Shown in pieces: positions 2,666 to 49,559 of a stretch of 64,000 bases of DNA. A program made the translations under genes and the position numbers. A model generated the notes under the pieces. It did no database searches. It was not told the origin of the DNA and saw only the letters and a program-made list of their open reading frames with translations. Each line of letters starts with the position of its first letter. Positions within the stretch are counted from its first letter, which is position 1. The stretch comes from Closterium sp. NIES-65 (taxonomy: Eukaryota > Streptophyta > Zygnematophyceae > Desmidiales > Closteriaceae). The DNA is taken from positions 186,001 to 250,000 of the forward strand of contig CANXME010002124.1 of NCBI GenBank assembly GCA_948144175.1, read 5' to 3'.

Positions 2666-4651
2666 CTATTTTGGTCCAGGCAATCTACCTAGGACAGTGC
2701 TTCTGGATACAAATGTGTGTGCCTGCCTCGCAATCCTTTCCTCTACTAGAGCTTCTGCCATTATATCAGACCCACTCAGAGCAAACCCACCTGTTGCAAA
2801 CGTGAGCAAGGAAAGTGATGGACGAACGCGGTTAGACTTAATGATACAAAAACGGGAAAAAACATCAGTGTAGACAATAATGTGCAATCTACCTTGAAGA
2901 ATGAACAATTTCAGGCTAGCTGCAAAGAAACCATAACAGAGGAGATGTGTACCTTTCGTTGGAGGCAGCAAACCAGCTGCAGCAGCAGAGACAGGCAGAA
3001 CCCATGGAGGCAAATCATTACCACCCGGTGACCCTGCTCCTGGTGCTCCTGCCACTCCTCCTACTGTTGCCGCTGCTCCTGCCCCTGCTTCCCCTGCTGC
3101 TCCTGCTGCCCCTGCAGCTGCTGCAGCAGAATCAGCTACAGCAGCCGCTACAGCCGGAGATAGATGTCTGGGGGGGTCCATGGGTGGGAAGCCTATGGGT
3201 GCATGTGGTGCAGCGTGGGCGGCATCTGACGTGGCATCGGAGATTGTGGGGTGTGGTTTAGATGAAGGGTATGTGTTTGGCGTGAATGGCATGTGCGATG
3301 CAGCAGGTGTGTGTGATGCATGTGGTGCATGGGGTGTGTGTGATGCATGTACAGCAAGGGGTGCATGTGATGCATGTGGTGCATGGGGTGTGTGTGATGC
3401 ATGTGATGCATGGGGTGCATGTGCAGCATGGGTTGCATGGGGTGCATGGGGAGCAGGCGGCATGTGCAGCAGGCTGACTCCTGAGTTCAGCTGGTGTCGA
3501 ATGGTCTGCAGCTGTGCCATCGCCTGCTGCACCTCCTGCTGCAACTGCGATAAACACATTTGGGGGAAATAAAAGAACTGGGATGGAAGCTGAGGGGAAC
3601 AAAGACGCTTCAATCAGCGTAACACAGCAGCTGAACCAACGCCTGCTGCCCCTCCTGCTGGAGAAAAAGACGAGATGACTTTTGAGTTGACCCAAGAGGC
3701 AGGAGGTCGAACTTTTTAGTCAACCCAACGCAATCGCCAGCTGCACCTGCTTCAGAAAAGGAAAGAGATGTCACACCACTTGAAAAGTTGCCACTTGTAT
3801 AAATCTACAAGAATTCTCAAGTGTTGTACCTCGGATAACTGTGACTGGTCGGCAAAAGAGCTGAATTTGGTTCGGGCAGCATGAACAAATCCCATGGCCC
3901 GTCCCGTGAGGCGTCCAGCTGCCCGGGCTATCACAGGGATATCCTTGGGGCCTGACGAAGCAGCAACGCGAGAAACAAGCGACCAAAAATTGGGGGGCGG
4001 GGGGAGCGGGGGGGGGGGGAAGGGGGGGGGAGAAGAAAAAAGAGGAGGGGAATGAAAGGGGTTGAGTGCAGTTGGGAGTGTATCAGAACGGAAAGAAATC
4101 ATCAAAGGGGAGGCGGCTCAGACAGAGGAAATGGGTGAGGCTACGGCCTTGTGGGAAACAGAAGCACATGCATACAGAGGGGTGGGTTGCAGTGCAATGT
4201 TAGGGACAGCCAGTCGGGTTGAGGACAGGAGTTAAGTACATGATTACCTATCGTTGGGAGTGGGGTACAAGAGAGGGATGCAGCGACATTATAAGTTTCC
4301 TGAGAGAGCAGGAGAGGAATGAGGGATCGAGCCTCTGAGCACAGGACGCTTTTTAGAATTCTCAAAAACTCCCTGCAACGTAGAGGAATGTGGGATCGAG
4401 CCTCCGCAGGGTTTTTTTGAGAATTCTCAAAAACACCCTGCAGGAGAGGAATGAGGGATCGAGCCTCTGAGCACAGGACCACGGTAGCAGCGAGGGATCG
4501 GGGGAGAGTGGAGGAAGATACGTGGCAGGAATAGGAAGGGAAGGAGCATTGAGAAAGGTCGGAGCACGGAGAAATGGCGGAACGGGTTACCAAAGGCGAC
4601 GATTCCCAGAAAGACGAGCAGCCCGATTTCGCCATTCGATAGGCCTAGCAT
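2666..4651 (-). CDS. TATB: Mitochondrial TatB-like protein, copy A (intact)
   Basis: Four exons: 4591-4651, 3830-3951, 2953-3544 and 2666-2790. Phases agree and give 299 residues. I start at the ATG at 4651 (MLGLSNGEIGLLVFLGIVAFG), as plant TatB-like proteins begin MLGISYGE; the frame is open upstream but has no nearer ATG. The order is one N-terminal membrane helix, then G-PKDIPVIARAAGRLTGRAMGF, an amphipathic helix, and QQEVQQAMAQLQTIRHQL. That matches the plant nuclear-encoded mitochondrial TatB, a component of the twin-arginine route that exports the folded Rieske protein. The C-terminal half is unusual: a His/Ala/Pro repeat (encoded at about 3275-3460) followed by an Ala/Gly-rich region, making the protein longer than I expect for plant homologues. 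The last exon (42 residues) is not a family signature I recognise. Confidence 0.8.
3270..3460 (-). repeat. His-rich coding minisatellite in TatB-like exon 3
   Basis: Degenerate GCATGTG/GCATGGG repeats read on the minus strand as PHA/SHA/THA triplets within exon 3. Copy B has a longer, shifted version at 14575-14800. Confidence 0.8.
4350..4441. repeat. Two EcoRI-centred palindromes in tandem-duplicated DNA
   Basis: TTTTTAGAATTCTCAAAAA at 4350-4368 and TTTTTGAGAATTCTCAAAAA at 4414-4433; the second stem is extended by flanking CAGGG/CCCTG. Around them the 35-base segment beginning GAGGAATG and ending in GAGCCTC(TGAGCACAGGA) occurs three times (about 4315, 4383 and 4445). This is the intron just downstream of TatB exon 1. 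Confidence 0.8.
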
Positions 4652-5245
4652 CTTCGCCGCCAAGCGCTACTAGACGAGGCGACTATCTATCTAAGGCGAA
4701 ATCCACCGCAAACTGAGAGGGAACTTTTGCGGCGCCTCAAATGCCATCCAATGGGCCTACTAGCATCGTCGCCGCCAAAGCGCTAGACGAGGCGACTATG
4801 TATCTAATGTGAAATCGATCGCCCACTGAGAGGGAAATTCCGTAACGAAAAACCGGGTCGCGGTTGTGATGTCGCGAATGTTTGCGCGCCGACGATCAGC
4901 GGGTAGCGCGCTTAGCCACACGTTGCGCGTTTCGTCTGGCCTTTTGAATCTGGGTGACGTGCTGAACGAGTATGCGGATACCGTGGGGCAAATTCGTTGA
5001 GGTTCTGGCTCAACTGCTGACGCGCACCGTACATAAATGGCTCGTATCGTGTTGCACCGCGCTAGAAAACAGCATCACCAGTTAACTCCAGAAATTCGTA
5101 CTGCCACGGAGCAGCTCCAGTAGAAGTGTGGAGGTTGTGGTCGTTCGAAACACACCATCTTATGGCCGTCAATATGGACCCACGGCACACTCTTCGACAA
5201 AGGGTTTGCAAGAGTAGTAGTCTAATCGAGCTACAAGTTATTGAT

Positions 5246-5363
5246 ATCAGTCGTGAGTCACACACATAGCGAACTATTCTTTCGCCTTTTACTAAAGAAT
5301 ACCGTGTGTGTTTCTCATCTAGCGGCATACAAGAATTTTTGGAGTGCCTTCTCGGAGGCACCA
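5246..5363 (+). ncRNA. U5: U5 spliceosomal snRNA, copy A
   Basis: The invariant U5 loop 1, CTTTCGCCTTTTACTAAAG, is present at about 5278-5296. It sits on a stem TATTCTTT/AAAGAATA stacked on CACACACA/GTGTGTGT. Downstream is an Sm site AATTTTTGG (about 5334-5342) and a 3' hairpin GTGCCT-TCTCGG-AGGCAC (about 5344-5361). Length near 118 nt fits U5. About 70 bp upstream (near 5173) GACCCACGGCA weakly resembles the plant upstream sequence element RTCCCACATCG. U5 holds exon ends in the spliceosome. The exact 5' end is estimated. The gene lies between the divergent-strand TatB-like and small-protein genes. Confidence 0.93.
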
Positions 5364-5587
5364 CAATTCAATGTTGAAATGGGAATGTAAATAGGAATAC
5401 CAACCTAGGAAGCGGGAATCAGAGGGCCGTAGCTGCCTACTATTGGTTGGCTGATCATGTGATCTGCCAACTCAGGACGAACCATGACTGAATAATAAGG
5501 AAAAGAAGGTTGAAAATGGCTATATCATTGCCTCGTTAGCAGCAGCATATCAGAAGTAGCCTAAATTTATGGTAGCGCACGATCACT

Positions 5588-5812
5588 TCAGTTTGTTCTT
5601 TTACCTAGTCTAAAATTAACATCCTCCATTATGGCTCTATTCCTAGCCTGCACCTTTGCAGCTATGCCAGGTGTTGCTTCCAGCAACACAGCACGGCCGA
5701 CAGCCATCACTGCCAGAGCAGCAGCAAAGCCTGCTACATACCGGGCAGTGCGGGCAGGGCGGTAATTTATCACTGCCCTGATCTCATCCCAGCTGGCTGG
5801 GTGATGCGACAT
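5588..5812 (-). CDS. Small single-span membrane protein, copy A
   Basis: Open frame of 74 residues starting MSHHPASWDEIRAV. A hydrophobic segment at residues 26-47 (YVAGFAAALAVMAVGRAVLL) is followed by a charged tail ending NFRLGKRTN. The copy-B homologue (17269-17493) differs at only a handful of residues although the surrounding DNA has diverged strongly, so the frame is under constraint and both copies may be used. I do not recognise the family. Size and topology suggest a small organellar or endomembrane subunit, but that is a guess. No upstream exon is evident, though one cannot be excluded. Confidence 0.7.
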   Translation of the reverse strand: MSHHPASWDEIRAVINYRPARTARYVAGFAAALAVMAVGRAVLLEATPGIAAKVQARNRAIMEDVNFRLGKRTN

Positions 5813-6059
5813 GTGAAATCAAAAGACGTGGTGGACCCAAATAAGGCCTGCAAACACACGAACGGGTCGCACAGGGTGAGAGCAACATTAGTGGGTAAAA
5901 ACGAGGGGAGCAACAGAGGGTGGGAGCAACAGATGGTCAGAGCAGTTAAGGGTGAGACATACTTTCGTGAAAAGGAACACCGGTGAAAAGAATGCCCTGT
6001 GAGGGAAATGAATGTGGAAAGAATGCAGCCCTGTGTGGTCCGAAACGGTGGAAGGGCAG

Positions 6060-6290
6060 AGAATGGGAGCAGTGGAATGGGGAATGCGGAGCAGTGGAGC
6101 GGGGAATGAGGGCAGTGGAATGGGGAATGGGAGCTGTGGAGTGGGGAATGAGAGCAGTGGAATGGGGAAGGCAGTGGAGCGGGGAATGAGGGCAGTGGAG
6201 TGGGGAATGAGGGCAGTGGAGTGGGGAATGAGGGCAGTGGAGTGGGGAAGGCAGTGGAATGGAGAATGGGAGCTGTGGAGTGTGGAGTGG
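6060..6290. repeat. Purine-rich minisatellite
   Basis: About ten tandem units of roughly 20 bp of the type GTGGAATGGGGAATGAGGGCA. Purine-rich on the plus strand. No coding function is seen; long frames here are repeat artefacts. The equivalent place in copy B carries a different purine-rich array (17590-18290). Confidence 0.9.
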
Positions 6291-6299
6291 GAACCGTTG

Positions 6300-8060
6300 G
6301 AGTAGTAGGAGGGTGAGACGCGAGGCAGAGGAAGGAGAGAGCGATGCCTGTGTGGCCAGAGAGGGAGGAAGAGCGGGAAGGGCGGTGGGGGCGGGGGGGA
6401 GCTGGGGGGAAAGGGCGGAAAGGAGGGTGGAGGCCAAGAGGGGGAAGGGGGGACGGGTGAGGGCGAAGGGCGAAGAGCGAATCACACCTAATTGACGGGG
6501 CGAGGCGACGAATGATGGATGGACGGACGAAAAGTTCGGAAAGCTTCTTTTAATGGGTTCGCGTCGCCGGAACAAGCGGCGCTGAAACTGGATTTCCGAA
6601 TTGGATTCGCCGCCTTCAATAAGATGCCAAAAGCAAAGCAATCCCCTCTGTTGATCGTTGCAAGACCGCGATTTGCGGACAGATTCCGAACGAGCTAACG
6701 GATTTGCGACTACCGAGAAAGCTTATACGGAGATACGAAACGGTACGACTACGTAGTGCGAAGAAGAGGCTGTAGAAGCAAACAAGGACGGGACACTAGA
6801 AGGTGCATGTGAGCCAGGGCCGTTCGTTTTGTGCCAGGACGCTTCTCATCGGACTGAGGGTACTGTACCATCTGACGTGTTACGATTCACGAATCTTAGG
6901 GTTGCTTTCAAAAGAGAGGGTTGCGCCACGACTTGTCGTCACTGATATGTGTTGCTAGAATCCGCGGTACCAGCGGTGCACACAACAGATAGCACCACGG
7001 AAAAAGCTGGAGAGAAACGAGTACAGAGATTCGTTATTAGCTGTGAGTCCCTTCGGCATACAACAATCTTTGGAGTCTCCAAGGCACAAAGAAGTGTCGT
7101 AAAATTCACAATCATTGATTTGTTGGCCTACCAAATTTAACGAAGTTGTATGCTCTGTGGCGATTCCTCGTCGACGTCGCTCGCACTACAGCATGTTTCG
7201 CAACGTGATGACGTTGGCACAAAATCCACACGTCATCCACTGTGGAGGATGCATTTTGCTGCCTTACACCTGATGCCCGTTTGAGTTCCCCGTACTTGGG
7301 CTGTGCTTTGGGCTCTTAAACGTTCTAGTAGTTTCGCCTGGTTCGTTTCATTTCGCCAGGGTGTTGAGGTGCTTCTAAAAAACACAGGTTGTAACGCGTT
7401 TGTTTTTTCCAAAACAAAGCTGGTGGGCCTGTGTTGTTGTCAGTCCAGGGTTTCGGGTTTATGCTTGTTTCTGACCAAGAAACAAGAACCTACCGGGTCA
7501 GCGTGGTTTGTTTTGCGCCTAAGATTCATACTTTGGCGTTTCCTCGCCCAAATGCAAGTTGATCCGCGTGCCTATAACCTGGGTGCAGCTGAGTGGGAAA
7601 AAAAACACGGGTGCAGAGTTTCTGAAATGTACAAGGCAAATTCGCGCGCAGTGGCTGGGCATCATGTGTACTGTGGTTGAATACATTCCGTCTGAATGTG
7701 CCCAGCATTCGAAGTTCAACATGAGTTGTGCACGGTTTCGTACGACGCAGAGCGTTGACATGCGCTTCAGTACGGTGAATGTTCACAGCCCAGCATATGA
7801 AGCATCCGAGTTCCCAAGACAAGCTAGCGTGTGGTTGTCATCTTCAACAGATGCGTCCTCCTTTCTCCGCATTTCCAGCCAGCTGTTTTCTGGGACAGGT
7901 GGAAAAGACCTTCCCTTCACCTCCCCCTCACGCACACCTTGCGCGAATCACGCTTCTACAGACTACTACTGTAGTACAACCTGTCGCCAACGGAGCTCTG
8001 GGAGGTTTGTGATTAGAAACCACCTGACTGCCACCTGAGGTTTTGCCTGATTGTCACCTG
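6300..8060. other. Intergenic, no gene recognised
   Basis: GC-rich purine DNA to about 6500, then mixed sequence. A segment around 7015-7095 contains GGCATACAACAATCTTTGGAG followed by TCTCC...AAGGCAC, which resembles the 3' end of the U5 gene and may be a decayed fragment. From 7190 to 7270 the sequence aligns with copy B at 19370-19450, and 7255-7275 is the uninterrupted target of the long-TIR element there. 7270-7860 is specific to copy A and holds nothing I recognise. Confidence 0.5.
7015..7095 (+). pseudogene. Possible decayed U5 snRNA 3' fragment
   Basis: CGGCATACAACAATCTTTGGAG resembles the U5 segment GCGGCATACAAGAATTTTTGGAG, including a damaged Sm site, and is followed by a GGCAC motif. 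Loop 1 is missing, so it cannot act as U5. The collinear copy-B segment at about 19130-19190 is more degraded. Similarity was judged by eye. Confidence 0.35.
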
Positions 8061-8063
8061 ACC

Positions 8064-8115: not shown

Positions 8116-8713
8116 CACCATACACCCTCTTTCTCGCCATTGTGAATTCGGTTATAGTGAAGTCAAGATGGGAAAAGCACGGTTAACGGTGGTTAGATTA
8201 AGTCTAGGTATGGTTCAATCAGACAAATCGAAGGTAACTAGGTTTTCCATCAGTTCAGCACAGTTCAGTGTAGTGAGAAACAGGGTGTATTAGCTGGCCA
8301 TCGCTCATTGACCTGCCTTCGCGACCTGCTAGAATTCGCAGCTCCGCAGCAGACCCTCCTGATCGAACGTACCCTTCGCAACCTACATCTAGAGTCTCTC
8401 GCGCGCCATCGTTTCCCAACTCCAACACGCCCGACGAGACGATTTTTTAGGTGTCTCAAAAGTAGACTTTCGCGCGCCGTCGCGTCTAGCTACTACCTCT
8501 GAAACAGCTGACTTCGCCATAGAGCTGCGTTATCTCGGGCCTCCTCGCGACATAGTTAACGACATCAATAATCCGTGTCGCTCTCGGCTGCTGCCAGCCC
8601 GAGCCTGTTCATTTCCAATACACTGCGTAAAATTGCGTCATCCAGTTTGTTTCTCTCTGAATTTCGCGAAACTCGCGTGACTTTCGCTTCTCCTTCGCCG
8701 GCTCTATCTCGCC

Positions 8714-11700
8714 ATGATGGCCGCGGCACGCGGCGCGCGTCCGCATAGGGTACCTCTCTCGCTGCTCGTCTATCTCTCCGTCGCGCTCGCGCTCTCTCAC
8801 CGCGCCCTCGCTTTCACGTCCTCAGGTATGTCGATGCAATAGAGACGCCATACTAGCAGCGCAGCTTTTGTGGGTGTGCTCTCAACGGTTTGATGTCCTT
8901 CCCATCCGTGTATTTGAAAGTCCCCCTTCTTTCCTTCCTCCCCTTCTTTCTCTCCCGCTTCCCCCCCACCCAACCTTCTTCCGGTCCTCTTCCCCGTCTT
9001 CTCTCCCCCCCCCACCCTCCTCTCTCCCCGACCTCCTCACTCCCCCGCCTCCTCTCTCCCCCGCCGCCTCTCCCCCGCCTCCTTTCTCTCGCCTTCTCTC
9101 CCCCGCCTCCTCTCTCCCGCCACCTCCGCCACCTCTCTCTCGCCTTCTCTTCCCCGCCTCCTCGCGCCCGCCTCTCCCCCGCCTTCTCTCTCCACAGACG
9201 TACTCAACTACCGCGGGCTCGTCTGGCGCCTCCTGGACCAATGGCCGTCCTCGGCGCGTCCACGTCAGCAATCGCCTGACCTAACGGCGATATCGTCATC
9301 TTCCGCGTCTCTGTTCGCTTCGGGGAATGAGACGTGGGGGGAGACTTCCGAGACGTCTCAAGGTTCCGCGAATGCGACGTGGGATTCCTATGAACCATCT
9401 CAAGATGCGGCTCGTACAACATGGGCGACGCGGGACGGTTCGGAAATGACGATGGGGGAGTCAACCGGCGGCGAACACGCTACGACGTCGGATGCGGAGG
9501 GAGCGGCATCGGGCCGCGCCGAAGCCGCTGCTGTTGGGATGAGCCATGGGTGGAGGAAATGGAGGGGACACGTGGTGCGCGAGGAGAGGCCGTTGGGGCA
9601 GCGCAGGCAGATGGGTGAGTGCCGCAGAATTTGAGTTGTCGTATGTGAAAAATGCTTCCTCTGCTCACTCACCCGCTTTAGCCTGGAAATGATTTCTGCA
9701 TATTGTGCCTGAAGCCTATCTTCAATACCCAGTTCCTCTCATGTTCCTCCGTTGTTGTGTCTCCTCCCTTCCTTGCATTCCGTCAGCTGATTCGTGGCTG
9801 GATGGTCCCTGCTCCGACTACGTAAAAGCGCCCGTCATCAGTATATCTTCTCTCGCGGATTTCAACAAGCGACTGGACTACGGTCCCGTTACAACGGTCA
9901 TCCTCGAACTACAGAGAAACCTCGTTATAAGCAAGGGAATCCTCTTCGACAGCAAGTTCTCCTGCACGATTCTGCGATCCGCGAAGACCGCCGCGAACCC
10001 GTTTCAAATCACACACATGGGAGCTAATGAACCGGTGCTGCGTATATGGAACACAAGCAACGTGCTTGTATTGAAGGTCGATTTTAGGCTCAGCGTTCGC
10101 TCCTCCTCCCCAACCTGCACGACTGTTCCCGAAATTACGGCCAAGGCGCAGTGCCCGACGATTTCCGTTATCCGTTCGTACGGAATTCAAATCGCGAAGG
10201 GGAGTGTTTTCGGGAGAATCGATCTACACCGCTCGGCGTCGTCTCGAGTGGACTCCATGCGTGTAACGGGGATTCCGACATTCAACCAGTCGCCTGGCGT
10301 GATTCAAGTGACGTACAGTGGCCACGGGCCTACACTCGCGAAATCCTTCATTGCTATAACAAACAATGAAGTGTATGGTGAGTAAAACTTCACACTTCCC
10401 GTTTTGCTACATTAGGCCTAGCATTTGCATCTTCTCCTTGTGGCACTGTCGGCGCCATCGTGCGCAACAACTAAGTGCATGACTTCATATTCACGGGTAT
10501 CCCATCCTCACCTCTCCTCTCTTGCTCTCCCGTCGTCCCCCTCCACTCCGTTTCAGGCGTGAACACGCCCATTGTCGTCCACAGGGGATCCGTCGGCGTT
10601 ATCGTGAGAAACAACTACGTGCACGACTTCATATTCGCGGGTATCCGCTGCGGATCCGACGTGCATTTCGCGGGCGACTGCATGCTCACGCAAATCGACC
10701 GCAACCTGGTGGTTGCATCGGGAAGAAACAGATCAGGAGACCAGGATGCAGCGGGGATTTACTACTGCGTCCACTGGTTCAGCCCTGGTGAGTCGTGAAA
10801 TCTGGTTCAGTGCTGGTACAGCGTGTACCGACCCAATGAAGACTGCATGCTCACGCAGATCGACCGCAACCTGGTGGTTGCATCGGGAAGAAACAGATCA
10901 GGAGACCAGGATGCAGCGGGAATTTACTACTGCGTCCACTGGTTCAGCCCTGGTGAGTCGTGAAATCTGGTTCAGTGACGGTACAGCATGTACCGACCCA
11001 ATGAAGACAGCATGCTCACTCAGATCGACCGCAACCTGGTCTTGGCCTCTGGGAGAAACCGGAGTGGGGATCAGGATGCTGCTGGGATCTACTACTGTGT
11101 GCACTCGTTCAGCTCTGGTGAGTTTTGGTTCGGCTCCGGAGAAGCTTGGTTTGGCCCCGGTGAGCCCTGGTCTGATAAGGAGATTGAGGTGACAGGCAAA
11201 GACTGCACGCTCACGCAGATCGGCCGCAACCTCATGGTCTAGTTTTGAGCGCATGTTTTTGAGAATTCTCAAAAACAATACCCTAAAAAATGCATGCTCA
11301 CGCAGATTGACCACAACCTCGTGGTGGCCTCCGGAAAGAGCCGCCCTGCTACCACCTCCTTATAAACTCCCTGCTAAACGCCCTGCCCTCTCCTACCCCC
11401 CTGCTGCAGACAACACGGCGGAGTGCAATTATGTGTTCAATGAGGACCAGTGCTACAACCTTGGTGCCTGAGGTTTTTCTCTAACGAGCTCGGAGCTCCC
11501 TGCTTTTCCCCCTGCCTTACGCTATCCCTTTGCAGATAACACAGCGGAGTGCAGCTATGTGTTCAACGTGGACCATTGCTTCTACCTCGATTTCGTAACA
11601 CCCTATTCCCTCCTCCCCTTCCCCTTCCCCTTCCCCATCCCATTCCCCTCTGCTTTTTCCCCTCCGCCCTAACAGACAACACAGCAGAGTGTAACTACGT

Positions 11701-13186: not shown

Positions 13187-13189
13187 ACA

Positions 13190-14150: not shown

Positions 14151-15267
14151 GAAGAAAAACTTCTGAAGCTCGGAATTCTACACTGTCCAGGCCGCTTACC
14201 TTTCTTTAGAGGGAGCAAACCAGCTGCAGCAGCAGAGACGGGCAGCACCCATGGAGGCAAATCATTGCCACCCGGTGACCCTGCTCCTGGTGCGCTTGCC
14301 ACTCCTACTACTGCTGCCGCTGCTCCTGCCCCTGCTTCGCCTGCTGCTCCTGCTGCCCCTGCAGCTGCTGCAGCGGATTCAGCTACGGCAGCTGCTACAG
14401 CGGGAGACTTGTGTCTGGAATAGTCTACGGGTGGGAAGTCCATGGGTGCATGCAAGTGGTGTAGTGTGGAGGGCATCTGACATGGCACTGGTAGTTGTGA
14501 AGTGCGGCGTGGGTGAGAGTTACATGCAGGGGGAAAAGTATGGTATGGATGGATGACATGTGGGAAAAATTAGGCGTGTGTGATGCATGGGGTGCATGTG
14601 GCGCATGGGGCGCTTGTTATGTATGTACAGCAAAGGGTGCGTGGGCAGCATGTGTGGCATGGGGTGCATGGGGGGCAGGTGATGCGTGGGGTGCATGGGC
14701 AGCATGTGCAGCATCGGGTGCACGTGGAGCAGGTGGCATGTGCAGCATGGGTTGCATTTGCAACATGGGTTGTATGGGGAGCATGGGGAGCAGGTGGCAT
14801 GTGCAGCAGGCTGACTCCCGAGTTCAGCTGATGTCGGATGGCCTGCAGCTGTGCCATCGCCTGCTGCACCTCCTGCTGCAACTGTTATCAGGCAGCCGGG
14901 AAAAGAAATGCAAACAGGAAAAGAGAGGAGAGAGGGAGGGGGAAAAACACATTTCAGTCACTGTACCATTGCACGTTGGCCGTTGCCTGCTGCATCTCCT
15001 GCTGCATCTCCTGCTGCAAGTCCAACAACAAAGCCCGAACAATTTTCAGTGGGAAAAGGGAAGAAGGAGAAGGGAGGGGAGCAGGGGCGCACACACGTTT
15101 CAGTCAGCATGGCACTGCAGCTCGACAGGGGGGGGAAATGGAAATGGGGGAGGGCAGTTTGGAAGGGCACAAACAAGCGCGTTACAATCAGTGTCGCATG
15201 CCAGCTGTACAGTCGCCCGCTGTAGCTCCTGCTGCAACTACAGCCCAACAACCGGGAAAAAAGTCTG

Positions 15268-15287
15268 GTTTTGAGGTGCCTCAAAAC
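15268..15287. repeat. Palindrome GTTTTGAGGTGCCTCAAAAC with about 85-bp flanking duplication
   Basis: The segment from GCGTTACAATCAGTGTCGCA through the CAGCCCAACA..CCGGG part occurs on both sides of the palindrome (starting about 15178 and 15291) with few mismatches. The centre GTGC is one base off perfect symmetry. Confidence 0.9.
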
Positions 15288-15532
15288 TAGGCGTTACAAT
15301 CAGTGTCGCATGCCAGCTGTACAGTCGCCCGCTGTAGCTCCTGCTGTAACTGCAGCCCAACAGCCGGGGAAACAAAAGGGAAAGGAAAAACAATTTGGCA
15401 CAGATGTGTTACCGTCAGTACACAAGAGCTTCGTGATCACGTGATCACCTGGGTCAAAGTGTACACTCCTGCTGGGGCTTCTGCTGGGGCTTCTGCTGCG
15501 GCTTCTGCTGGAGAAAAGGACGGGACATCACA

Positions 15533-15570
15533 CTTCTGAGTCGACTACGAGGCATTTGAGTCGACTCAAG
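15533..15570. repeat. Palindrome TTGAGTCGACTCAA at a tandem duplication junction
   Basis: TTGAGTCGACTCAA at 15556-15569, preceded by a second damaged half (CTTCTGAGTCGACTA). The unit GGGTCAAAGTGTACAC..CTTCTGCTGG..GAGAAAAGGA lies on both sides (from about 15453 and 15570). The second unit is again followed by CTTCTGAGTTGACTCAAAAG. Confidence 0.85.
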
Positions 15571-16503
15571 GGTCAAAGTGTACACTTCTGCTGGGGCTTC
15601 TGTTGGGGCTTCTGTTGGGGCTTCTGCTGGAGAAAAGGACATCACACTTCTGAGTTGACTCAAAAGAAACTGCCTGCTGCACTTGCAGCAGAAAGAAACA
15701 GGACGGAAACGCCACACCTGGGACAGTTCCGTAGTTAGTGAGCTTCTGGGTAATATTGCAGCGGCGTACCTCAGATCCGTACCTCAGATAGTTTGCGTCT
15801 GGTCCGCGAACGAACCGAATGTTGTTTGGGCAGCATGAAGGAATCCCATGGCCCGTCCCGTGAGGCGTCCAGCTGCCCGAGCTATCACGGGGACATCCTT
15901 GGGGCCTGACCGGGCAGCAACGCGAGAAACAGGAGACCCAGAAAAGGAAAATCAAGAAAAGGGAGAATGGAACGAAATTGTCGAACCGAGACGCCTCAAA
16001 AGGAGGCGAAGTGTGAGGATACAGCCTTGTTGGGGAAACAGAAGCAAATGCAGAGTACAGAATGGGTGGATTGAATGTGATGTTACGGACAGCTAGTCGA
16101 GGGGACAGGAGTGAGGAAGTTAGAGAGTGAGGGATTGGCGGCCGTCTAACCTGGGAATAAAGCACAAGACAGGGAAGGGGCGGCATGCTCTCTCAGAAGC
16201 TGGGAGAGGAGTGAGGGAGCTGATCGTCTAACCTGAGGCACAAGACAGGGAAGGGGCGGCATTCAATGTTCTCTCAAAAAGCGGCGAGAGGAGTAAGGGA
16301 GCGATCCTCTAAGCATAGGAGCAAGGGAGCAGCGAAGGAAGGGAGGAGAGTGGAGGGAGAATACGTGCGAGGGATGGGAAGGGACGGAGCACGGATAACT
16401 TTTCCCCGATTGTTTCTGGGATAAAGGGATGGGAGACGGAGCACGGAGAAGGGATGGGAAGGGAGTGGAACGAGTTACCAAATGCGACGATTCCCAGAAA
16501 GAC

Positions 16504-16631
16504 GAGAAGTCCAATCTCGCCATTCGATAGGCCAAGCATCGTCGCCAAACGAGGTGACTTTTGAGCCACTCAAAAGTCACCTCGAGAAGTCCAATCTCGC
16601 CATTCGATAGGCCAAGCATCGTCGCCAAACG
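16504..16631. repeat. Hairpin with 48-bp perfect flanking direct repeats
   Basis: The hairpin GAGGTGACTTTTGAG-CCA-CTCAAAAGTCACCTC at 16551-16583 separates two identical 48-bp copies (16504-16551 and 16584-16631) of the start of TatB exon 1. Copy A (around 4620-4665) has a single copy and no hairpin, so copy A is the empty site. Confidence 0.93.
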
Positions 16632-16952: not shown

Positions 16953-17070
16953 ATCAGCCGTGAGTCACACACATAGCGAACTATTCTTTCGCCTTTTACT
17001 AAAGAATACCGTGTTTGTTTCTCATCAAGCGGCATACAATAATTTTTGGAGTGCCTTTTCGGAGGCACCA
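16953..17070 (+). ncRNA. U5: U5 spliceosomal snRNA, copy B
   Basis: Same elements as the copy-A gene: loop CTTTCGCCTTTTACTAAAG, stem TATTCTTT/AAAGAATA, Sm site AATTTTTGG at 17041-17049, and 3' hairpin GTGCCTTTTCGGAGGCAC. The outer stem has one changed base (GTGTTTGT for GTGTGTGT). About 70 bp upstream, TTCCCACAAAG (near 16884) resembles the plant snRNA upstream element RTCCCACATCG. It is as well conserved as a functional gene, and both copies are probably expressed. Confidence 0.9.
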
Positions 17071-25491: not shown

Positions 25492-25526
<35 letters not shown>

Positions 25527-28790: not shown

Positions 28791-29077
28791 GCAACAGCCG
28801 GCCAGCGCGCATTGACAAACCTTCGCGACCTGCCGCGAGAATACGCAGCTCTGCAGCAGACCCTCCAGATCGAACCTACGCTCCGCAACCTACAAGTAGA
28901 GTCTCCGACCCTAGAGTCTCTACGCGCGCCATCGTTTACGAACACCAACGCGTCACACCGAGACGATTTTTGAGGTGTCTCCATAGAATATCGCGCGCCG
29001 TCCCTTCCAGCCACCACCACTGAAACTGCTGATTTCCCCCACAAAGCTGCGCTATCATCTACGACTGTTACGCGACA

Positions 29078-29153
29078 AAGTTGTTCACCAATCATCTGTT
29101 GACTTTTGAGTCGACAGATGCTCAAAAGTCGAAGTTGTTCACCAATCATCTGT
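29078..29153. repeat. Hairpin with 22-bp flanking direct repeats
   Basis: GACTTTTGAG-loop-CTCAAAAGTC (29101-29130, loop TCGACAGATG) between two copies of AAGTTGTTCACCAATCATCT(GT) at 29078-29099 and 29132-29153. This member has a 10-base loop rather than a 4-base centre. Confidence 0.9.
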
Positions 29154-29304
29154 CACGCGACACGGTGTCGCTCTCGCCTGCGGCTTCCAGCCCGCGCCTG
29201 CGCTTTTGCAATACCGCTGCGTAATCTTCGTTATCCAGATTGCTCCACTCTCTATCGCCGGCTGTGTCTCGCCATGATGGCGGCGGCACGCGTCGCGCAT
29301 CTGC

Positions 29305-29700
29305 ATAATAGGGTTCCTCTTTCGCATAATAGGGTTCCTCTTTTGCATAATAGGGTTCCTCTTTCGCATAATATGGTTCCTCTTTCGCATATAGGGTTCC
29401 TCTTTCGCATAATAGGGTTCCTCTTTCGCATAATAGGGTTCCTCTTTCGCATAATAGGGTTCCTCTTTCGCATAATAGGGTTCCTCTTTCGCATAATAGG
29501 GTTCCTCTTTCGCATAATAGGGTTCCTCTTTCGCATAATAGGGTTCCTCTTTCGCATAATAGGGTTCCTCTTTCGCATAATATGGTTCCTCTTTCACATA
29601 ATAGGGTTCCTCTTTCGCATAATAGGGTTCCTCTTTCGCATAATAGGGTTCCTCTTTCGCATAATAGGGTTCCTCTTTCGCATAATAGGGTTCCTCTTTC
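29305..29700 (+). repeat. 21-bp minisatellite inside a signal-peptide exon
   Basis: About 19 units of GCATAATAGGGTTCCTCTTTC within exon 1 of the copy-B beta-helix gene. Copy A has one related unit at the same place (GCATAGGGTACCTCTCTC). Units of 21 bp would add seven residues (HNRVPLS) each, but a 20-bp unit near 29390 changes the frame to IGFLFRI repeats. Confidence 0.95.
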
Positions 29701-30633
29701 GCTGCTCCTCTGACTTTCCGTCGCGCTCGATCTCTCTCCCAACGTGCTCGCCTTCACGCCTTCAGGTATGTCGATGCAATAGAGACGCTTTAGCGGGTGT
29801 GCTCTTAGCGGGTGTGCTCTCCTCCTTCCGGTTTGAGGGTGTGCTCTCGACGGTTTGCAAGTCCCGCCTCTCTTCCTTCCTTCCGTTATTTCTCTCCCGC
29901 TTCCCTCCCACCCAACCTTCTTCCGGTCCTTTTTCACCACCTCGTCGTCCCCCGCCTCCTCTCTCCCCCGCCTGCTCGCCCCCGGCGCCTCCTCTCCCCC
30001 GCCTCCTCTCCCCGCCTCCTCTCCCCCGCCTCCTCTCCCCGCCTCCTCTCCCCGCCTCTTCTCTCTCGCCACCCCATCTCCTCCTCGCTTTCCCCCCCCC
30101 CCCCCCCGCCTTCTTTCTCTGCAGCCGTGCTCAATTACCGCCGGCTTGAGTGGCGCCTCCTACGTCTCAAAAGCCTCCTCTCTCTCGCCACTCCGTCTCC
30201 TCCTCGCTTCCCCCACCCCCGCCTTCTTTCTCTGCAACCGTGCTCAATTGCCGCGGGCTTGTGTGGCGCCTCCTCGACCAATGGCAATCGTCCGACCTAA
30301 CGGCGAAATCGTCGCCGTCCGCTTCTGTGTTCGCCTCGGGCAACGAGACTCAGGAGGAGACTTCTGAGGCGTTTCAGGACTCGGGCGGCAATGCCACGTG
30401 GGGATTCTTTGAACAATCTCAAGATTCGGCTCGTACAACTTGGGAAGCCCGGGACAAGACGACGAGGGGGGAGTCGACCGGCGGCGAACTCGCTGCGACA
30501 TCGGATGCGGAGGGAGCGGAGTCGGACCGTGCTGTTGGGATGAGCCGTGGGTGGAGGAAATGGAGGGGACACATGGCGCGAGAGGAGAGGCCGTTGGGGC
30601 AGCGCAGGCAGATGGGTGAGTGCTGCGGAATCT

Positions 30634-30684
30634 GCGTTGTCGTGTTTTGAGACGTCTCAAAACACTCCTTCTTTCACGTTGTCG
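30634..30684. repeat. Palindrome GTGTTTTGAGACGTCTCAAAACAC
   Basis: 30641-30664, AatII-type centre. CGTTGTCGT occurs on both sides (30634-30642 and 30676-30684). Confidence 0.88.
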
Positions 30685-30704
30685 TATTGAAGGAAAGCCC
30701 CCCC

Positions 30705-30803
30705 TCTGCGTTCACTCTCACCCGATTAATTCTGAAGGGTACGTTTTGAGTCGACTCAAAACACACCTGCGTTCACTCTCGCCCGATTAATTCTGAAGGG
30801 TAC
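30705..30803. repeat. Palindrome GTTTTGAGTCGACTCAAAAC with 37-bp direct repeats
   Basis: Palindrome 30743-30762. The flanking segment starting CTGCGTTCACTCTC and ending GAAGGGTAC is present at 30705-30741 and 30767-30803 with one mismatch. It lies in intron 2 of the copy-B beta-helix gene. Confidence 0.93.
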
Positions 30804-30901
30804 CTTGATTTTGTAGACATGACCTGCAGCGCAAATACCGTACCGTGTTTTTCGTCCCCTTGTTGCTCTCTTCCTCATTCCGTCAGCTGATTCGTGGCTG
30901 G

Positions 30902-31031
30902 ATGGTCCCTGCTCCGACTGCTCCGTGAAAGGTGTGTTTTGAGTCGACTCAAAACACACATGGTCCCTGCTCCGACTGCTCCGTGAAAGAAGGAGTGTTT
31001 TGAGACGTCTCAAAACATCCCTGCTCCGACT
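30902..31031. repeat. Two palindromes inside exon 3 of copy-B beta-helix gene
   Basis: GTGTGTTTTGAGTCGACTCAAAACACAC (30932-30959) between perfect 30-bp repeats (30902-30931 and 30960-30989). Then TGTTTTGAGACGTCTCAAAACA (30996-31017) between 14-bp repeats TCCCTGCTCCGACT (30964-30977 and 31018-31031). Copy A reads straight through GATGGTCCCTGCTCCGACTA at 9804-9823, coding for DGPCSDY. Confidence 0.95.
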
Positions 31032-31776
31032 ACGCAAGAGCGCCCGTCATCAACATATCTTCTCTCGCGGATTTCAGCAAACGATTGAGTTTTACACCCG
31101 TTACAACGGTCATCCTCGAACTACAAAGGAACCTCGTTGTAAGCAAGGGGATCCTATTTGACGGCACTTTCTCGTGCACGATTCTCCGATCCGCTAAGAC
31201 CGCCGCGGACCCGTTTCAAATCACTCACATGGGAGCGAACGAGCCGGTGCTGCGTATATGGAACACGAGCAATGTGCTTGTATTGAAGGTCGATTTCAAG
31301 CTAAGCGTTCGCTCGTCGTCCCCATCGTGCACCACTGTACCGGAAATATATTCTAAGGCGCAGTGCCCGACGATTTCCGTTATCCGATCGTACGGAATTC
31401 AAATCGCGAAGGGGAGTGTTTTCGGGAGAATCGATCTACACCGCTCGGCGTCATCTCCAGTGGACTCCATGCGTGTAACGGGGATTCCGACATTCAATCA
31501 GTCGCCTGGCGTGATTCAAGTGACCTACAGTGGCCACGGGCCTACACTCGCAAAATCCTTCATTGCTATAACAAACAATGAAGTCTTTGGTGGGTAAACA
31601 CTGCGCACGCTCTTTTTCCCTCCACTCGGCTTTCAAGCATGTAATGTATGCACAGTTCTCTCATTGTGTCTATGTGTGTGCTTAGTTTTCCCTCCACTCG
31701 GCTTTCCTTGGCTCTCGAGGTTTCCAATACACCATGACACATGTCCTCCCCTCATGGGTCAGGTCACCACGTGCAT

Positions 31777-31784
<8 letters not shown>

Positions 31785-31869
<85 letters not shown>
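31785..31869. repeat. (CT)n microsatellite
   Basis: About 42 CT units directly before an exon-4-like acceptor in copy B. Confidence 0.97.
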
Positions 31870-31870
<1 letters not shown>

Positions 31871-32170
31871 GGCGTCAACACTCCTATAGTGATCCACCGG
31901 GGAACTATCAGCGCCATCGTCACCCCTCCCCCCTCCTCCCCTCCTCTCCCCTTTCCCCCTTCAGGCGTCAACACTCCTATAGTGATCCACAGGGGAACTG
32001 TCAGCACCATCGTATGAAACTACTACGTGCACAACTTCATATCCGCTCTCTACTCCCCTGCTCCCCCTCCTTCCAACCCACCGGGCGTGAGCACCCCTAT
32101 AATCGTCCACAGGGGATCCCTGGGCGTCGTAGTTAGAAACAACTACGTATACGACTTCATATTCGCGGGG
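31868..32170 (+). repeat. Exon echoes of beta-helix exon 4 start, copy B
   Basis: The acceptor plus GCGTCAACACTCCTATAGTG is present at about 31870 and 31964, and diverged at 32085; the full version starts near 32228. Each copy keeps a pyrimidine tract and AG, so each could compete as an acceptor. Confidence 0.85.
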
Positions 32171-32369
32171 ATCCCATCCCATCTTCCTCTCCCCACTCAC
32201 CCCTTTCCCGCCCCTTCCCCCTTCCAGGTGTCAACACCCCAATCGTCGTTCACCGTGGCAGCGTGGGCGTCATCGTGAGAAACAACTACGTGCACGACTT
32301 CATATTCGCGGGGATCCGCTGCGGCTCCGATGCGCACTATGTAGGCGACTGCATGCTCACGCAGATCGA

Positions 32370-32408
32370 TCGCAACCTTTGAGTCGACTCAAAAGTCAAC
32401 TCGCAACC
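32370..32408. repeat. Palindrome TTTGAGTCGACTCAAA with 8-bp direct repeats
   Basis: 32378-32393, between TCGCAACC at 32370-32377 and 32401-32408, inside exon 4 of copy B. Copy A has one CGCAACCTGGTGGTTGC and no insert. Confidence 0.9.
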
Positions 32409-32952
32409 TGGTTGTCGCTTCCGGGAGAAATAGATCCGGAGACCAGGATGCGGCTGGGATCTACTACTGTGTGCACTGGTTCAGCCCTGGTGAGTCTTGA
32501 TTCGGGTCCGGTGAGGGTTGGCTCAACCCAGGTGAGGGCTGCTTCAGCTCTGGTAAAGTATGTGCCGACACAGGGCAACCAGAGTGCAACCAGCCTTTAC
32601 CACGGTGGAATGCAATTAGGGTACGTGTTTACCCCTCCCCTTACCTCTGCTCTTCCCTCTCCTCCTGCATATACAGACAACACAGCGGAGTGCAGTTACG
32701 TGTTCAATGGGGATCATTGCTACTACCTAGATTTCGTGACATCTGGAGTGGCAATCAAGGGAGGTGCCTGCATCAACACATACGATGGCATCAAAGTCAA
32801 CAATGGGAAATGGTATGTCTGCCGCTCTTCTCACTGAAAATATTACTCATCCTCACCTCATAACTCTCTTCATCCTTTTTCCCTCTTCTCCGTTTCCCCT
32901 CCCTTTCCCTTCCTCCAGACTTTCCTCTGCCCCGCTCTCTCTCCATGATTTC

Positions 32953-33022
32953 TTATTGTGTTCAGGAAATATTGAAATCACTTTTGAGAATTTTCAAAAG
33001 CGATTTTTTATTTGTTCAGGAC
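32953..33022. repeat. Hairpin ATCACTTTTGAGAATTTTCAAAAGCGAT
   Basis: 32977-33004, near-perfect palindrome with an AATT-like centre. TTATT(G)TGTTCAGGA lies on both sides (32953-32966 and 33009-33022). Confidence 0.85.
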
Positions 33023-33776
33023 AGCACAGAGCAGGTAGTTACATGTAAAATCTCTAACCACTCCTTCCTCCCACTCCCTCCACCCTCCATTCGAACCTCC
33101 AGGAACAGGGTAGAGGATGTGATTATAAAGAAGGTGCTCAGGTCCCCGCGGTGGAGTGCGTGTTTGACGCCTCTGGTGCTCAGCTGTGACATAAACCCCG
33201 GCACGTACTGTGAGCTCATGAGGAAACAGTACTACGACACACCCGTGTTCCAAGAGGTGAGTATGAGCGCGTGAAGTGCACCTGAGAGAGCACCTGAGTC
33301 ATGTCAAGACACGTACTGGGAGCTCATGAGGAAACAGTACTACGACACACCCGTATTCCAAGTGGTGAGAATCATTCACAGCCAGTGTAGCATCTATGCA
33401 ATGCACGTACTGGGAGCGCATGAGACACTCCGGTGTTCCAAGAGGTGAGGGAGAAAGAGAGGTGAGACTGGAGCAACTGAGGAGCATGTGAGGACATGGA
33501 GGTACTTACTGGGAGCTTATGCGGAAACAGTACTACGATACGCCCCGGGGACAGTACTATGATACGCCAGTTTTCCGCGGGGTGAGGAAGAAGCACCTGA
33601 GAATTCACCTGAAGAACACCTGAGACACGTCTGGGAGATCATGCGCCAGCAGTTACATGACAGACACCCTGCTCTTCCAAGAGATGAGACTTGAATTAAG
33701 AGCACCTGAGGAACACGTGAAAGTTTGAGAGCCTGAGTCGGCTTTAATGTCTCTGGGAGCGGCTAGGTGAGGTGAA

Positions 33777-33885
33777 TCAAAAGCATGGCGCTTCGCATGC
33801 ATACTCACCTCGTGCATTGAGGGGGTTTTTGAGGCGCCTCAAAAACCACCTCAAAAGCATGGCGCTTTGCATGCATACTCACCTC
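33777..33885. repeat. Palindrome GGTTTTTGAGGCGCCTCAAAAACC with 35-bp direct repeats
   Basis: 33824-33847. The 35-bp segment TCAAAAGCATGGCGCTT..CTCACCTC lies at 33777-33811 and 33851-33885 with one mismatch. Centre GCGC. Confidence 0.93.
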
Positions 33886-34930: not shown

Positions 34931-34937
34931 ACCATAT

Positions 34938-41518: not shown

Positions 41519-41598
<80 letters not shown>

Positions 41599-44500
41599 GT
41601 TTGATAAGTCGATTTTTGAGTTGACTCAAAAAGTTGACTAAAAAATCATCGTCTTTCTCTCACTCCCACCCGTTCTCAAGTCAATTTCTCTCGTTCCAAC
41701 CCGTCGCCTCTCCATCAGGGGTCACCGCATTCTCTATGCCGTGGCAGGGTGTGGCAAACCCGTCATTTCAAGTCTGCTGCCTGTGCATCTCTCTGCCCCA
41801 TCCACACATTACGCTCTAACATTTGCCACACTCCCCACCCTTCCCCACCGTTCTCCACACTTCCGCAGGGGTCATCGCATTCACTATGCTGTGGCAGGGT
41901 GTGGCAAACCCGTCATCCTTGTGCATGGCTTTGGTATGCTCTCGGACCCCCCTCTTTCGAGGTGAATCTAGATGTACTCGTATCACAACAAACAGGAATG
42001 CGTGCATCGTTACACTACAGCATGACAAAAAATGACGCTGCCTACTCATGCACCGCTTAGGATAAGCGATGTAGTGTGAGCGGATCTGGATGAGTACGGC
42101 CTAAGGCCGTGCAAGGTGATATGGGGCTCCTGATAAAGATCACCTTGCACGGCCATGGGCCGTACTCATCCAGTTTCGCCCACACTGCATCGCCTATTCT
42201 AAGCGGTGCATGAGGAGGCAGCGCCATTTTCTGTCACACTGCAACGACGGCTCTTAGATCCTGCTTTCAAACAGCCAGCACTTTCAGTTGCTTGTCCTTC
42301 CCACCCCTTTTCCAACCCTCTTCTTCCCCTCTCCCTCTTGCTCCTCCTCCCAACACTACAGGAGGTAGTGCAGGGCACTTTCGCAACCTTATAGCCCATC
42401 TCGCAGTCCACCATAAGGTGTACGCCGTCGACCAGCTCGGGATCATGTAGTGCCATTGCTGACATGTTCCTCACCCCCTTCATTGACTTTGTCCTTCACC
42501 CTCTTCCTCTCTTCGTTCTTCCTATCTGCACTTTCCCCCCTCCTCTCTCCCCTCCCCCCCTGGCACCCCTCGTCCTGCTTTCTCCAATTACCACAGGAGG
42601 CAGTGCAGGGCACTTCCGCAACCTTATAGCGCATCTCGCAGACCACCATAAGGTGTATGCTGTGGACCTCTTGGGATTCGGGGACTCTGACAAGCCGGGT
42701 GGCATCGAGTATGGACCCGAGCTGTGGGCTGACATCATCAACGGTAGGTGCTGACATCATCAACGGTAGGTGCTGACATCATCAACGGTAGGTGCTGACA
42801 TCATGGTCATCATCTTGCAGACCACCATAAGGTGTATGCCTGGGCTTTGGGGACTCTGACAAAGCCGGGCGGCATTGAGTATGGACCTGAGCTCTGGGCT
42901 GACATCATCAACAGTAGGTGCTGACATCATCAACGGTGGGTGCTGAGCTGACAACATAAACGTGAGGGTCTATCACAATCAACGCAGGTGCTGGCGTGCA
43001 GTGCATCATCCACAGTAGTGGTTGGGCATCACCAGCATCTGCCAGATCACCAGCATCTGCCAGATCACCAGCATCTGCCAGATCACCAGCGTCTGGCAGA
43101 TCACCAGCGTCTGGCAGATCACCAGCCTCTGGCAGATCACCAGCATCTGCCAGATCACCAGCGTCTGGCAGATCACCAGCGTCTGGCAGATCACCAGCGT
43201 CTGGCAGATCACCAGCGTCTGGCAGATCACCAGCGTCTGGCAGATCACCAGCGTCTGGCAGATCACCAGCGTCTGGCAGATCACCAGCGTCTGGCAGATC
43301 ACCAGCGTCTGGCAGATCACCAGCATCTGCCAGATCACCAGCATCTGCCAGATCACCAGCATCTGCCAGATCACCAGCATCTGCCAGATCACCAGCATCT
43401 GCCAGATCACCAGCATCTGCCAGATCACCAGCGTCTGGCAGATCCCCAGCATCTGGCAGATCACCATAAGGTGTACACCGTTGATCGGCTAGGGTTTGGC
43501 GACTCTGACAAGCCGGGCGGCATCGAGTACGGGTCAGAGCTCTGGGCTGACATCATCAACGGTAGGTGCTGACATCATCAACGGTAGGTGCTGTCATCAT
43601 CGACAGTGGGTGCTGACATCATCATCATCATCATCATCATCTTGCAGACTACCATAAGGTGTATCCTGTTGACTTTGTTGACCGGCTAGGGTTTGGCGAC
43701 TCTGACAAGCCGGGCGGCATCGAGTACAGGCCTGAGCTCTGGGCTGACATCATCAACGGTAGGTGCTGACATCATCAATGGTAGGTGCTGACATTATCAA
43801 GGTAGGTGCTGACATCATCAAGGTAGGTGCTGACATCATCAACTGCAGGTGCTGACACTGTCTTTCCAGTCACAGCCCCCTCCTCTTTCTCCTTCCTCTC
43901 CTCACTCTCGTTTCTCACCTACCTCACCCCTCTCACCTCTCTCAGTGCTGCTCCTTGCTCTCCCTGCTTTCCCCCATGTCCACCCCGCATCACCCCCCTC
44001 CCTCCTACCTACAGATTTCATGCTCGAGTTTTCACGGACGAGCCTGCTGCAGTGCTGATTGGCGATTCCTAGGCTCCCTCACCTCGCTCACTGCTGCCGC
44101 TTCCCGTTCCTGCCCCGCTTCCAACCCTTTTCTTGCCCATGGCCCCCCATTCACTCACAGATTTCATGCTCGAGTTCACGGACGAGCCTGCTGTGCTGAT
44201 AGGCAACTCTATCTGCTCTCTCACCTCACTCATTGCTCTCTCACTGCTGTTCCCTGCTCCCCTCACTCCTTCGCCCCCCTCCCTCCTACCTACAGATTTC
44301 ATGCTCGAGTTCACGGACGAGCCTACAGTGCTTATAGGCAATTCCATCGGCTCCCGCACCTCCCTCACTGCTGCCACCTCCTTCCTTCCTACCCCCCATA
44401 CTGACCCCCCCCCCCCCCCCCCCCCCCCGCCCCCCCCCTGTGCAGACTTCATGCTCGAGTTCACTGATGAACCCGCCGTGCTCATTGGCAACTCCATTGG

Positions 44501-49535: not shown

Positions 49536-49559
49536 GGCTGACTGGTGCTTGTGAAGGTG

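Follow-up and report, generated by a model that had tools for sequence, protein, structure and literature searches.

A 64-kb stretch of the Closterium sp. NIES-65 genome (positions 186,001 to 250,000 of contig CANXME010002124.1, hereafter the window) carries a family of tiny palindromes, built on TTTTGAG/CTCAAAA, that stand between direct repeats of widely varying length. We conclude that these palindromes are probably end-only copies of a Penelope-like element (PLE) that appears, from its sequence, to lack an endonuclease of its own (EN-minus), pasted in by a reverse transcriptase (RT) that tails both ends of a staggered break, with the two tails annealing to each other. This conclusion is carried by a 3.6-kb element with the same palindrome at its end, a hairpin in each of four element subfamilies, the identity of end-only insertions of one type to the element end, target-site duplications (TSDs) of variable length, shortening of the palindrome arms and microhomology beyond the shortened arms.

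A palindrome family flanked by direct repeats of variable length

The original prediction had listed 15 palindromes as one family, and that family is real: TTTTGAGN(0-10)CTCAAAA has 11 exact matches in the window, against 0.01 expected (100 shuffles). The genome-wide search that had been proposed as a check gave 30,700 sites in the 874-Mb assembly (G000; the window lies on contig C1826), whereas the pattern read in reverse has 56. When the window was scanned for perfect palindromes of every kind, nearly all loop-free ones belonged to this family. The listed coordinates were correct to within a few bases and 11 of the 15 sites are exact, whereas the arm reads TTTTTAG at 4350 and TTTGAG..CTCAA at 15556, the first T is missing at 32378 and the right arm is TTCAAAA at 32977. 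When up to two mismatches were allowed, 30 rows were found, some of them overlapping, against 4.4 expected (20 random sequences), so old family members are partly real and partly chance. Two members lie beyond the listed sites, at 4725 and, as a half palindrome, at 30162; those at 3680, 8444, 15648 and 61448/61563 are possible old remnants. Counting doubtful remnants, 10 of 23 members fall within 5 kb, at 28968-33844 (p 0.0004 under uniform placing).

As had been predicted, direct repeats flank nearly all sites (14 of 15), with lengths of 9 to about 115 bp. A repeat score of at least 14 was reached at 11 of the 15 sites (L1, L2, K, F, N, G, H, B, C, D and E) but at only 10 of 600 control positions, from which tandem arrays and family stretches were excluded; this control replaced an earlier one of 400 positions that had been inflated by microsatellites. 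The same test was positive for none of 17 other palindromes in the window. That set excludes the palindromes at 5275, 16982 and 31558, another five from the 43-kb tandem repeat and the poly-G rows. Exact 9-bp repeats flank 30642, 32378 and 32981, which is weak evidence alone, as 35 of 600 controls reach 9; these three sites coincide with gaps in the alignment of paralogous segments, 32378 cleanly and the other two more roughly. Extensions of the stem differ from site to site, as had been noted: the left and right arms of a site agree better with each other than with arms dealt among sites (14 sites, p 0.0002 and 0.00001). TSD divergence and arm decay were unrelated (13 sites, rho -0.07, including G and H with non-standard centres and N out of register). 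Site N (15556) had its core set out of register in the repeat, control and clustering computations.

The insertions are as follows, with types named by the four-base centre of the palindrome.

4308-4374, L1: target copy 4308-4347 (40 bp), insert 4348-4374 (GCTTTTTAGAATTCTCAAAAACTCCCT), AATT type; boundaries by hand
4375-4467, L2: target copy 4375-4404, insert 4405-4439, AATT type, next target copy from 4440; boundaries by hand; scored repeat 23 bp, 1 mismatch
4640-4836, old insertion: decayed palindrome TTTTGCGGCGCCTCAAAT at 4725-4742, GCGC type; target copies about 95 bp by eye, 54 bp scored with 7 mismatches
8444-8461, possible old remnant: counterpart at 28968 in the paralogous segment
11204-11325, K: repeat 11204-11238 / 11291-11325 (5 mismatches in 35), insert 11239-11290, AATT type; the repeat (11257) adjoins tandem exon copies and is less sure
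15179-15372, F: target copies 15179-15260 / 15291-15372 (82 bp, 4 mismatches), insert 15261-15290, centre GTGC
15451-15665, N: scored target copies 15451-15521 / 15570-15640 (71 bp, 4 mismatches; about 115 bp by eye), insert about 15547-15569 by hand, TCGA type; older copy at 15648-15665
16503-16631, G: target copies 16503-16551 / 16583-16631 (49 bp, identical), insert 16552-16582 (AGGTGACTTTTGAGCCACTCAAAAGTCACCT) with full arms of the commonest type
29078-29153, H: target copies 29078-29099 / 29132-29153 (22 bp, identical), insert 29100-29131
30055-30274, half palindrome: insert 30162-30172 (ACGTCTCAAAA), ACGT type, single arm, boundaries by eye; target copies about 100 bp, diverged
30635-30685, A: target copies 30635-30643 / 30677-30685 (9 bp), insert 30644-30676; gap in the paralogue near 9647
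30706-30803, B: target copies 30706-30742 / 30767-30803 (37 bp, 1 mismatch), insert 30743-30766, TCGA type, left arm short
30902-30989, C: target copies 30902-30931 / 30960-30989 (30 bp, identical), insert 30932-30959, a 28-bp perfect palindrome, TCGA type
30964-31031, D: target copies 30964-30977 / 31018-31031 (14 bp, identical), insert 30978-31017, ACGT type
32370-32409, I: target copies 32370-32378 / 32401-32409 (9 bp), insert 32379-32400, TCGA type, left arm cut
32959-33021, M: target copies 32959-32967 / 33013-33021 (9 bp), insert 32968-33012, imperfect palindrome, AATT type
33777-33885, E: target copies 33777-33811 / 33851-33885 (35 bp, 1 mismatch), insert 33812-33850, GCGC type
41613-41632, J: palindrome, centre TTGA; flanking repeat not convincing

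Two paralogous gene blocks (8.3-13.2 kb and 28.8-34.4 kb) carry empty sites. The 112 bp at 30906-31017, comprising insertions C and D with their target copies, are missing in the paralogue at 9806, and the 31 bp of site I (32370-32400) are missing at 10699. Palindromes and tandem repeats are error-prone, and the original prediction had raised a systematic assembly error. Such an assembly or library artefact is contradicted by these empty sites, by TSD copies that have diverged unevenly and to graded extents and by element units with the same ends (below); we consider its probability negligible. The predicted misfit with any transposase that makes a fixed TSD also holds. Inverted repeats and high copy number would suit a miniature inverted-repeat or foldback element moved by a cut-and-paste transposase, but TSDs of 9 to about 115 bp and arms shortened on either side make this explanation extremely unlikely. 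The inserts, at about 11-53 bp, would leave no room for the RNA polymerase III promoter of a short interspersed nuclear element (SINE).

Anatomy of insertions across the genome

For a wider view we sampled 200 kb in 20 stretches, 17 of them at or between listed sites and three taken blind on C1826, so densities in this sample, which held 53 exact sites, are not typical of the genome. Window and stretches together gave 63 usable sites, of which 39 had no neighbouring site within 110 bp; among these isolated sites the repeat score was at least 9 in 35 and at least 12 in 30. In the 27 that were kept (score at least 12, divergence at most 15%), TSDs measured 16-82 bp with a median of 30 and were free of mismatches in nine. 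The centres of 64 exact sites were TCGA (25), ACGT (15), GCGC (11), AATT (6) and seven others, four of which are one CpG-type change away; 57 of the 64 were perfect four-base palindromes. By commonest base per place, 126 arms gave the consensus AGGTGAC-TTTTGAG. Arms are trimmed from the outside, on either or both sides, and the target bases beyond a trimmed arm match the tail in register at 38 of 84 positions (19 arms; null 22.1, p 0.00025), including the first base in 11 of 19 (null 4.6, p 0.0018). The null was obtained by moving the junction inward, and these counts supersede smaller ones of 30/65 and, for the first base, 8/15.

The flanks of the 63 sites were also compared as a route to a longer element, and no long common body was found. 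Of 336 matching rows of at least 45 bp, 261 joined parts of a single locus. The 75 that linked different loci were rows of 45-84 bp around ACGT-type palindromes, one 49-bp TCGA row and six of 69-96 bp tying window position 4415 to L154, a stretch of the same contig. There, about 30 kb away, the L1/L2 target and palindromes (4308-4478) recur at about 7600-7830 with 97-99% identity over 69-74 bp, in an order that suggests a permuted array. Target and palindrome also form tandem arrays of five 37-bp units (L142, 7990-8155), five 53-bp units (L145, 1439-1668) and four 42-bp units (L151, 8176-8319). Judged from positions only, an arm recurs 25 times at 45-bp spacing on C562, and regular arm repeats occur on C448 and C277. 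Insertions thus seem to seed minisatellites of one target copy plus one palindrome.

Elsewhere, half-units are repeated head to tail before the partner arm (L148, about 9020-9060; L146, 5030-5100 and 2548-2600, with GAGGTGACTTTTGAGTC twice, for example), which could be template re-use as in telomerase or plain tandem duplication. L145 contains degenerate tandem arrays of ACTTTTGAGGC-like units at 6185-7500, with a period of about 20-24 bp. The spread of sites looks very uneven among the matches listed: the first 350 kb of C10 hold no exact site, and several follow.

Two other origins were rejected. Telomere repeats do not account for the tails, as the arms carry TTTTGAG with element tails and the window contains TTTAGGG and CCCTAAA twice each. 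A viral carrier received no support, with zero matches to TTTTGAGTCGACTCAAAA. The 14-base core pattern occurs at no fewer than 120 viral loci, apparently by chance, and served only as a control: among 105 usable, unrelated viral sites, two had a palindromic centre, one had an outer stem of at least 3 and none reached a repeat score of 14.

A 3.6-kb Penelope-like element as the probable source

The long arm of the ACGT type, GTGAAAGAAGGAGTGTTTTGAG, has 470 copies in the genome and none in the control. One pair of copies on C73 stands 3.6 kb apart, and the stretch between them (L156) holds a 296-aa RT frame on the minus strand, together with a direct repeat of 204 bp whose copies lie 3.6 kb from each other. 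On C95, units follow head to tail at 3.63-kb spacing. Internal junctions in L158 and L159, given in the RT sense, run from body (..GGGTTC) through hairpin and tail (GTTTTGAGACGTCTCAAAACACTCCTTCTTTCACGT) into the next unit (GGCTTC..). End-only copies match this 36-base element end closely: site A (from 30644, its last bases shared with the target copy), L152, L161 and L162 at 36 of 36 bases, site D at 35 (minus strand) and L160 at 34-35. The element body is absent upstream of all six.

These identities bear on a further explanation, in which host template-switch or end-joining repair copied nearby palindromes into breaks as filler, with no part for the element RT. In its favour, the window has three look-alike pairs within 400 bp (17 sites, p 0.0002, although the pairs were picked after looking), tandem duplications without palindromes exist and microhomology is present. 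However, the arm shared by look-alikes A and D belongs to a genome-wide subfamily with 470 copies over many contigs, and ACGT-type copies end at or inside the end of the element tail. Copying of neighbouring palindromes was dropped because of the A/D arm, a check that did not extend to pairs B/C and L1/L2, and we regard host filler as improbable.

The RT and the terminal repeats place the element among the PLEs. A model of its RT is closest to telomerase, with a telomerase-like fold, and its relatives include Selaginella and Cryptomeria proteins and proteins that join an RT to a GIY-YIG endonuclease. No GIY-YIG endonuclease was found in the six open reading frames of L156 or in the near relatives P0138, P0144, P0141, P0150, P0176 and P0170. 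Terminal direct repeats or tandem units typical of PLEs are present as the 204-bp repeat, the C95 units and a regular RT spacing on several contigs. A hammerhead ribozyme is a known feature of PLE terminal repeats; a candidate hammerhead-like core (CTGANGA-stem-GAAAC, stem II of 3-5 bp) occurs in L156, L164 and L165, three of seven pieces of which L157-L159 are short, compared with two matches, neither with a stem, in 264 kb of other DNA. Rfam found no ribozyme in L156 and the other ends, returning two weak microRNA matches far below threshold. In folding of the 3' end of the unit RNA the hairpin formed, with an ordinary total energy (z -0.57). A PDB sequence search with the single RT frame returned nothing relevant, whereas the RT profile recovered eight RT chains (E 0.0003-0.06), headed by a group II intron maturase RT.

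In a search for further RT copies, 132 out of 243 candidate places were scored and every one of these proved to be a match, seven of them at 96-100% identity, with groups near 60, 57 and 54% coming next. Many matches have long open frames; those of the other element copies span 700-796 aa. Some small contigs carry large arrays with regular spacing. PLE-like RTs that are more diverged, at 38-44% identity, form regular head-to-tail arrays on C614, C714, C744, C1803, C919, C927, C969 and C2347, with spacings of about 6.0, 8.0 and 8.9 kb and some open frames above 2,000 aa; these arrays may be chromosome ends.

Four subfamilies carry the four main centres

The three diverged RT groups allowed an out-of-sample test. 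One place from each group (60, 54 and 57% identity) was chosen before its sequence was seen, and 501 bp downstream were fetched. All three subfamilies contained the TTTTGAG/CTCAAAA palindrome, each with one of the remaining centres.

ACGT element (the first one): hairpin 397 bp after the RT match
GCGC element, C1650: hairpin 393 bp after the RT match
TCGA element, C1541: hairpin 375 bp after the RT match
AATT element, C165: hairpin 370 bp after the RT match

Thus, all four subfamilies examined carry a hairpin 370-397 bp past the RT match, and their centres are the four main centres of the palindromes. The commonest arm, AGGTGAC, is complementary to the tail of the TCGA element, GTCACCTCG. For a comparison of tails, later array members and sites with odd centres were removed from the 64, leaving 45, and runs of at least four bases were scored. 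TCGA sites matched the tail of their own centre in 13 of 22 cases, and the other three tails in 2, 0 and 0; for ACGT sites the own-centre tail matched in 4 of 10, and the others in 0, 1 and 0. The link between palindromes and elements is therefore firm for the TCGA and ACGT types, and for the AATT and GCGC types it is made by core and centre.

The subfamilies also speak to a DNA-level micro-transposon, about 20-52 bp long and moved by an enzyme of its own, from which a PLE would merely have picked up the palindrome. Palindromes do far outnumber elements (30,700 sites and at least 132 RT matches). That four of four element subfamilies have the hairpin at the same distance, each with a different centre, nevertheless argues against such a transposon, as do the variable TSD length and the lack of a long common body around the 63 sites, and we judge it very unlikely.

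A model of two-ended tailing

In the mechanism that we favour, the element RNA would end in the hairpin (TTTTGAG..CTCAAAA, with a centre set by subfamily) followed by a short single-stranded tail. The 3' DNA ends at a staggered break would pair with this tail over a few bases, and the telomerase-like RT would copy the tail and the near hairpin arm, usually stopping there. With the same tail on both break ends, the self-complementary 3' tips would anneal head to head, and fill-in of the overhangs would duplicate the target by the length of the stagger (9 to about 115 bp seen), giving target, palindrome, target. Longer copies would carry the 3.6-kb body behind the same end. Breaks or paired nicks suit the widely variable TSDs and the absence of a target motif by eye better than a fixed enzyme does, and in-register microhomology beyond trimmed arms points to priming by microhomology. 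The earlier suggestion of a hairpin micro-element joined to staggered breaks was, in that sense, a fair description.

Tailing of both ends is suggested by the junctions of the element. An inverted copy of the tail lies between target and unit at both element-target junctions seen (L156 and L157) and is absent at three internal junctions (L156, L158 and L159); the simplest reading is that each break end received its own tail and the tails annealed. Site H (29101) fits this reading, with a tail at each side. On the right the tail is normal; on the left it appears to have folded back and to have copied the end of the target: the centre contains the reverse complement of the target end CATCTGT, which we read as a fold-back scar.

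The chief rival to two-ended tailing starts from the same PLE but tails one break end only: the cDNA would enter the hairpin, snap back to copy its own tail outward and be joined to the other end. The CATCTGT scar at site H favours it, and in four of six long-tail end-only ACGT copies a nearly full arm of 16-17 bases faces a short one of 2-7. On the other side, a normal tail is present at site H opposite the fold-back and could not be supplied by a single tail, and most centres, being perfect four-base palindromes in 57 of 64 sites, offer no loop to fold round. We consider single-tail fold-back unlikely as the general route, yet a serious contender, and it may act at some sites.

Several observations weigh against two-ended tailing by a PLE without an endonuclease. 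The inverted tail is supported by two element-target junctions only. At inserted positions that deviate from AGGTGAC, left and right arm carry the same base in 29 cases and different bases in 27, and the palindromes are thus far from fully symmetrical beyond the core; the AGGTGAC sequence was itself derived from arms that were also used in the microhomology test, although the element tail later bore it out. AATT sites match their own tail in two of six cases and the TCGA tail equally often, and none of seven GCGC sites matches any tail, including that of the one GCGC element; matches this sparse mean that many subfamilies must exist or that arms are short. The hairpins of L163-L165 are placed relative to the RT match and not to the unit end. 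Stops flank the L156 RT frame, and the endonuclease search covers this copy and the six near relatives. Finally, a convincing flanking repeat was not found at 41613, a site without a TSD.

Relation to known systems

Athena and Coprina are EN-minus PLEs, a group known from telomeres. The Closterium element resembles this group in its telomerase-like RT fold, its Selaginella and Cryptomeria kin, its head-to-tail units, its candidate hammerhead-like core and the absence of GIY-YIG from the element pieces read; it differs in its end palindrome and in tens of thousands of end-only internal insertions with long TSDs. Target-primed insertion of long interspersed nuclear elements and SINEs likewise gives variable TSDs and 5' truncation, but the Closterium insertions have no A-tail or target motif by eye, are truncated down to the hairpin and can have either arm short. 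For the double-hairpin elements of fungi we know of no RT source or long TSD. EN-minus PLEs of plants are described from Selaginella and conifers (PMC9033089).

Telomerase itself is described as patching breaks in mammals with microhomology and some TSDs (PMC2246262). As presented there, the resulting interstitial repeats share broken 3' ends, microhomology and, sometimes, target duplication with the Closterium insertions, which instead contain a palindromic retroelement end and not telomere repeats. Target duplication, the rule in Closterium, was a minority outcome at the loci reported there (6 of 130 in rodents and 4 of 25 in primates; PMC2246262). Tandem duplication by fill-in at breaks with 3' overhangs is described for mouse and human cells, and such CST-Pol alpha fill-in would explain direct repeats of variable length, although the duplications in that account have no element-derived insert (PMC8355091). 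The double-hairpin elements named in fungal mitochondrial DNA are short, mobile-looking palindromes like those here, but organellar (PMC5910586).

A literature search of titles and the starts of abstracts, which left most subscription journals and the pairing of Penelope with palindromes uncovered, found no palindromic insertions of this kind. The original prediction of an undescribed system therefore stands in part: the source class, PLEs and apparently EN-minus ones, is already known, whereas the end palindrome in four diverged subfamilies, the mass end-only insertion and the signs of two-ended tailing appear to be new.

Other features of the window

Ordinary tandem duplications without palindromes are numerous (3306-3448, 14584-14808, 29303-29702, 43028-43466 and others). 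The remaining features noted were:

5249-5361 and 16956-17068: two U5 small nuclear RNA genes of equal score, in paralogous segments
20927-24181, minus strand: Copia-type retrotransposon with two frames encoding RVT_2 and a retroviral SH3-like domain
47884-50100 and 50824-53001: two inverted copies of a segment of about 2.2 kb, 87% identical

Implications

These data give an odd and very abundant sequence pattern a source, together with a source of new tandem repeats. The hairpin stubs are so short that they would be easily missed in annotation. They form a one-genome record of what a telomerase-like RT may do at internal breaks, including which 3' ends it extends, how much pairing it needs and how the ends are joined, and they touch the old question of how PLEs without an endonuclease spread away from chromosome ends and how closely their action resembles that of telomerase. 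More tentatively, and with somewhat less than even confidence, we propose that a telomerase-like EN-minus element serves as a general two-ended break patch that caps both 3' ends, leaves scars by the tens of thousands and seeds minisatellites. If this is true, it would be an unusual route both for the spread of an element and for the repair of genome breaks, and an element thought to be bound to telomeres would spread, and perhaps aid its host, at internal breaks.

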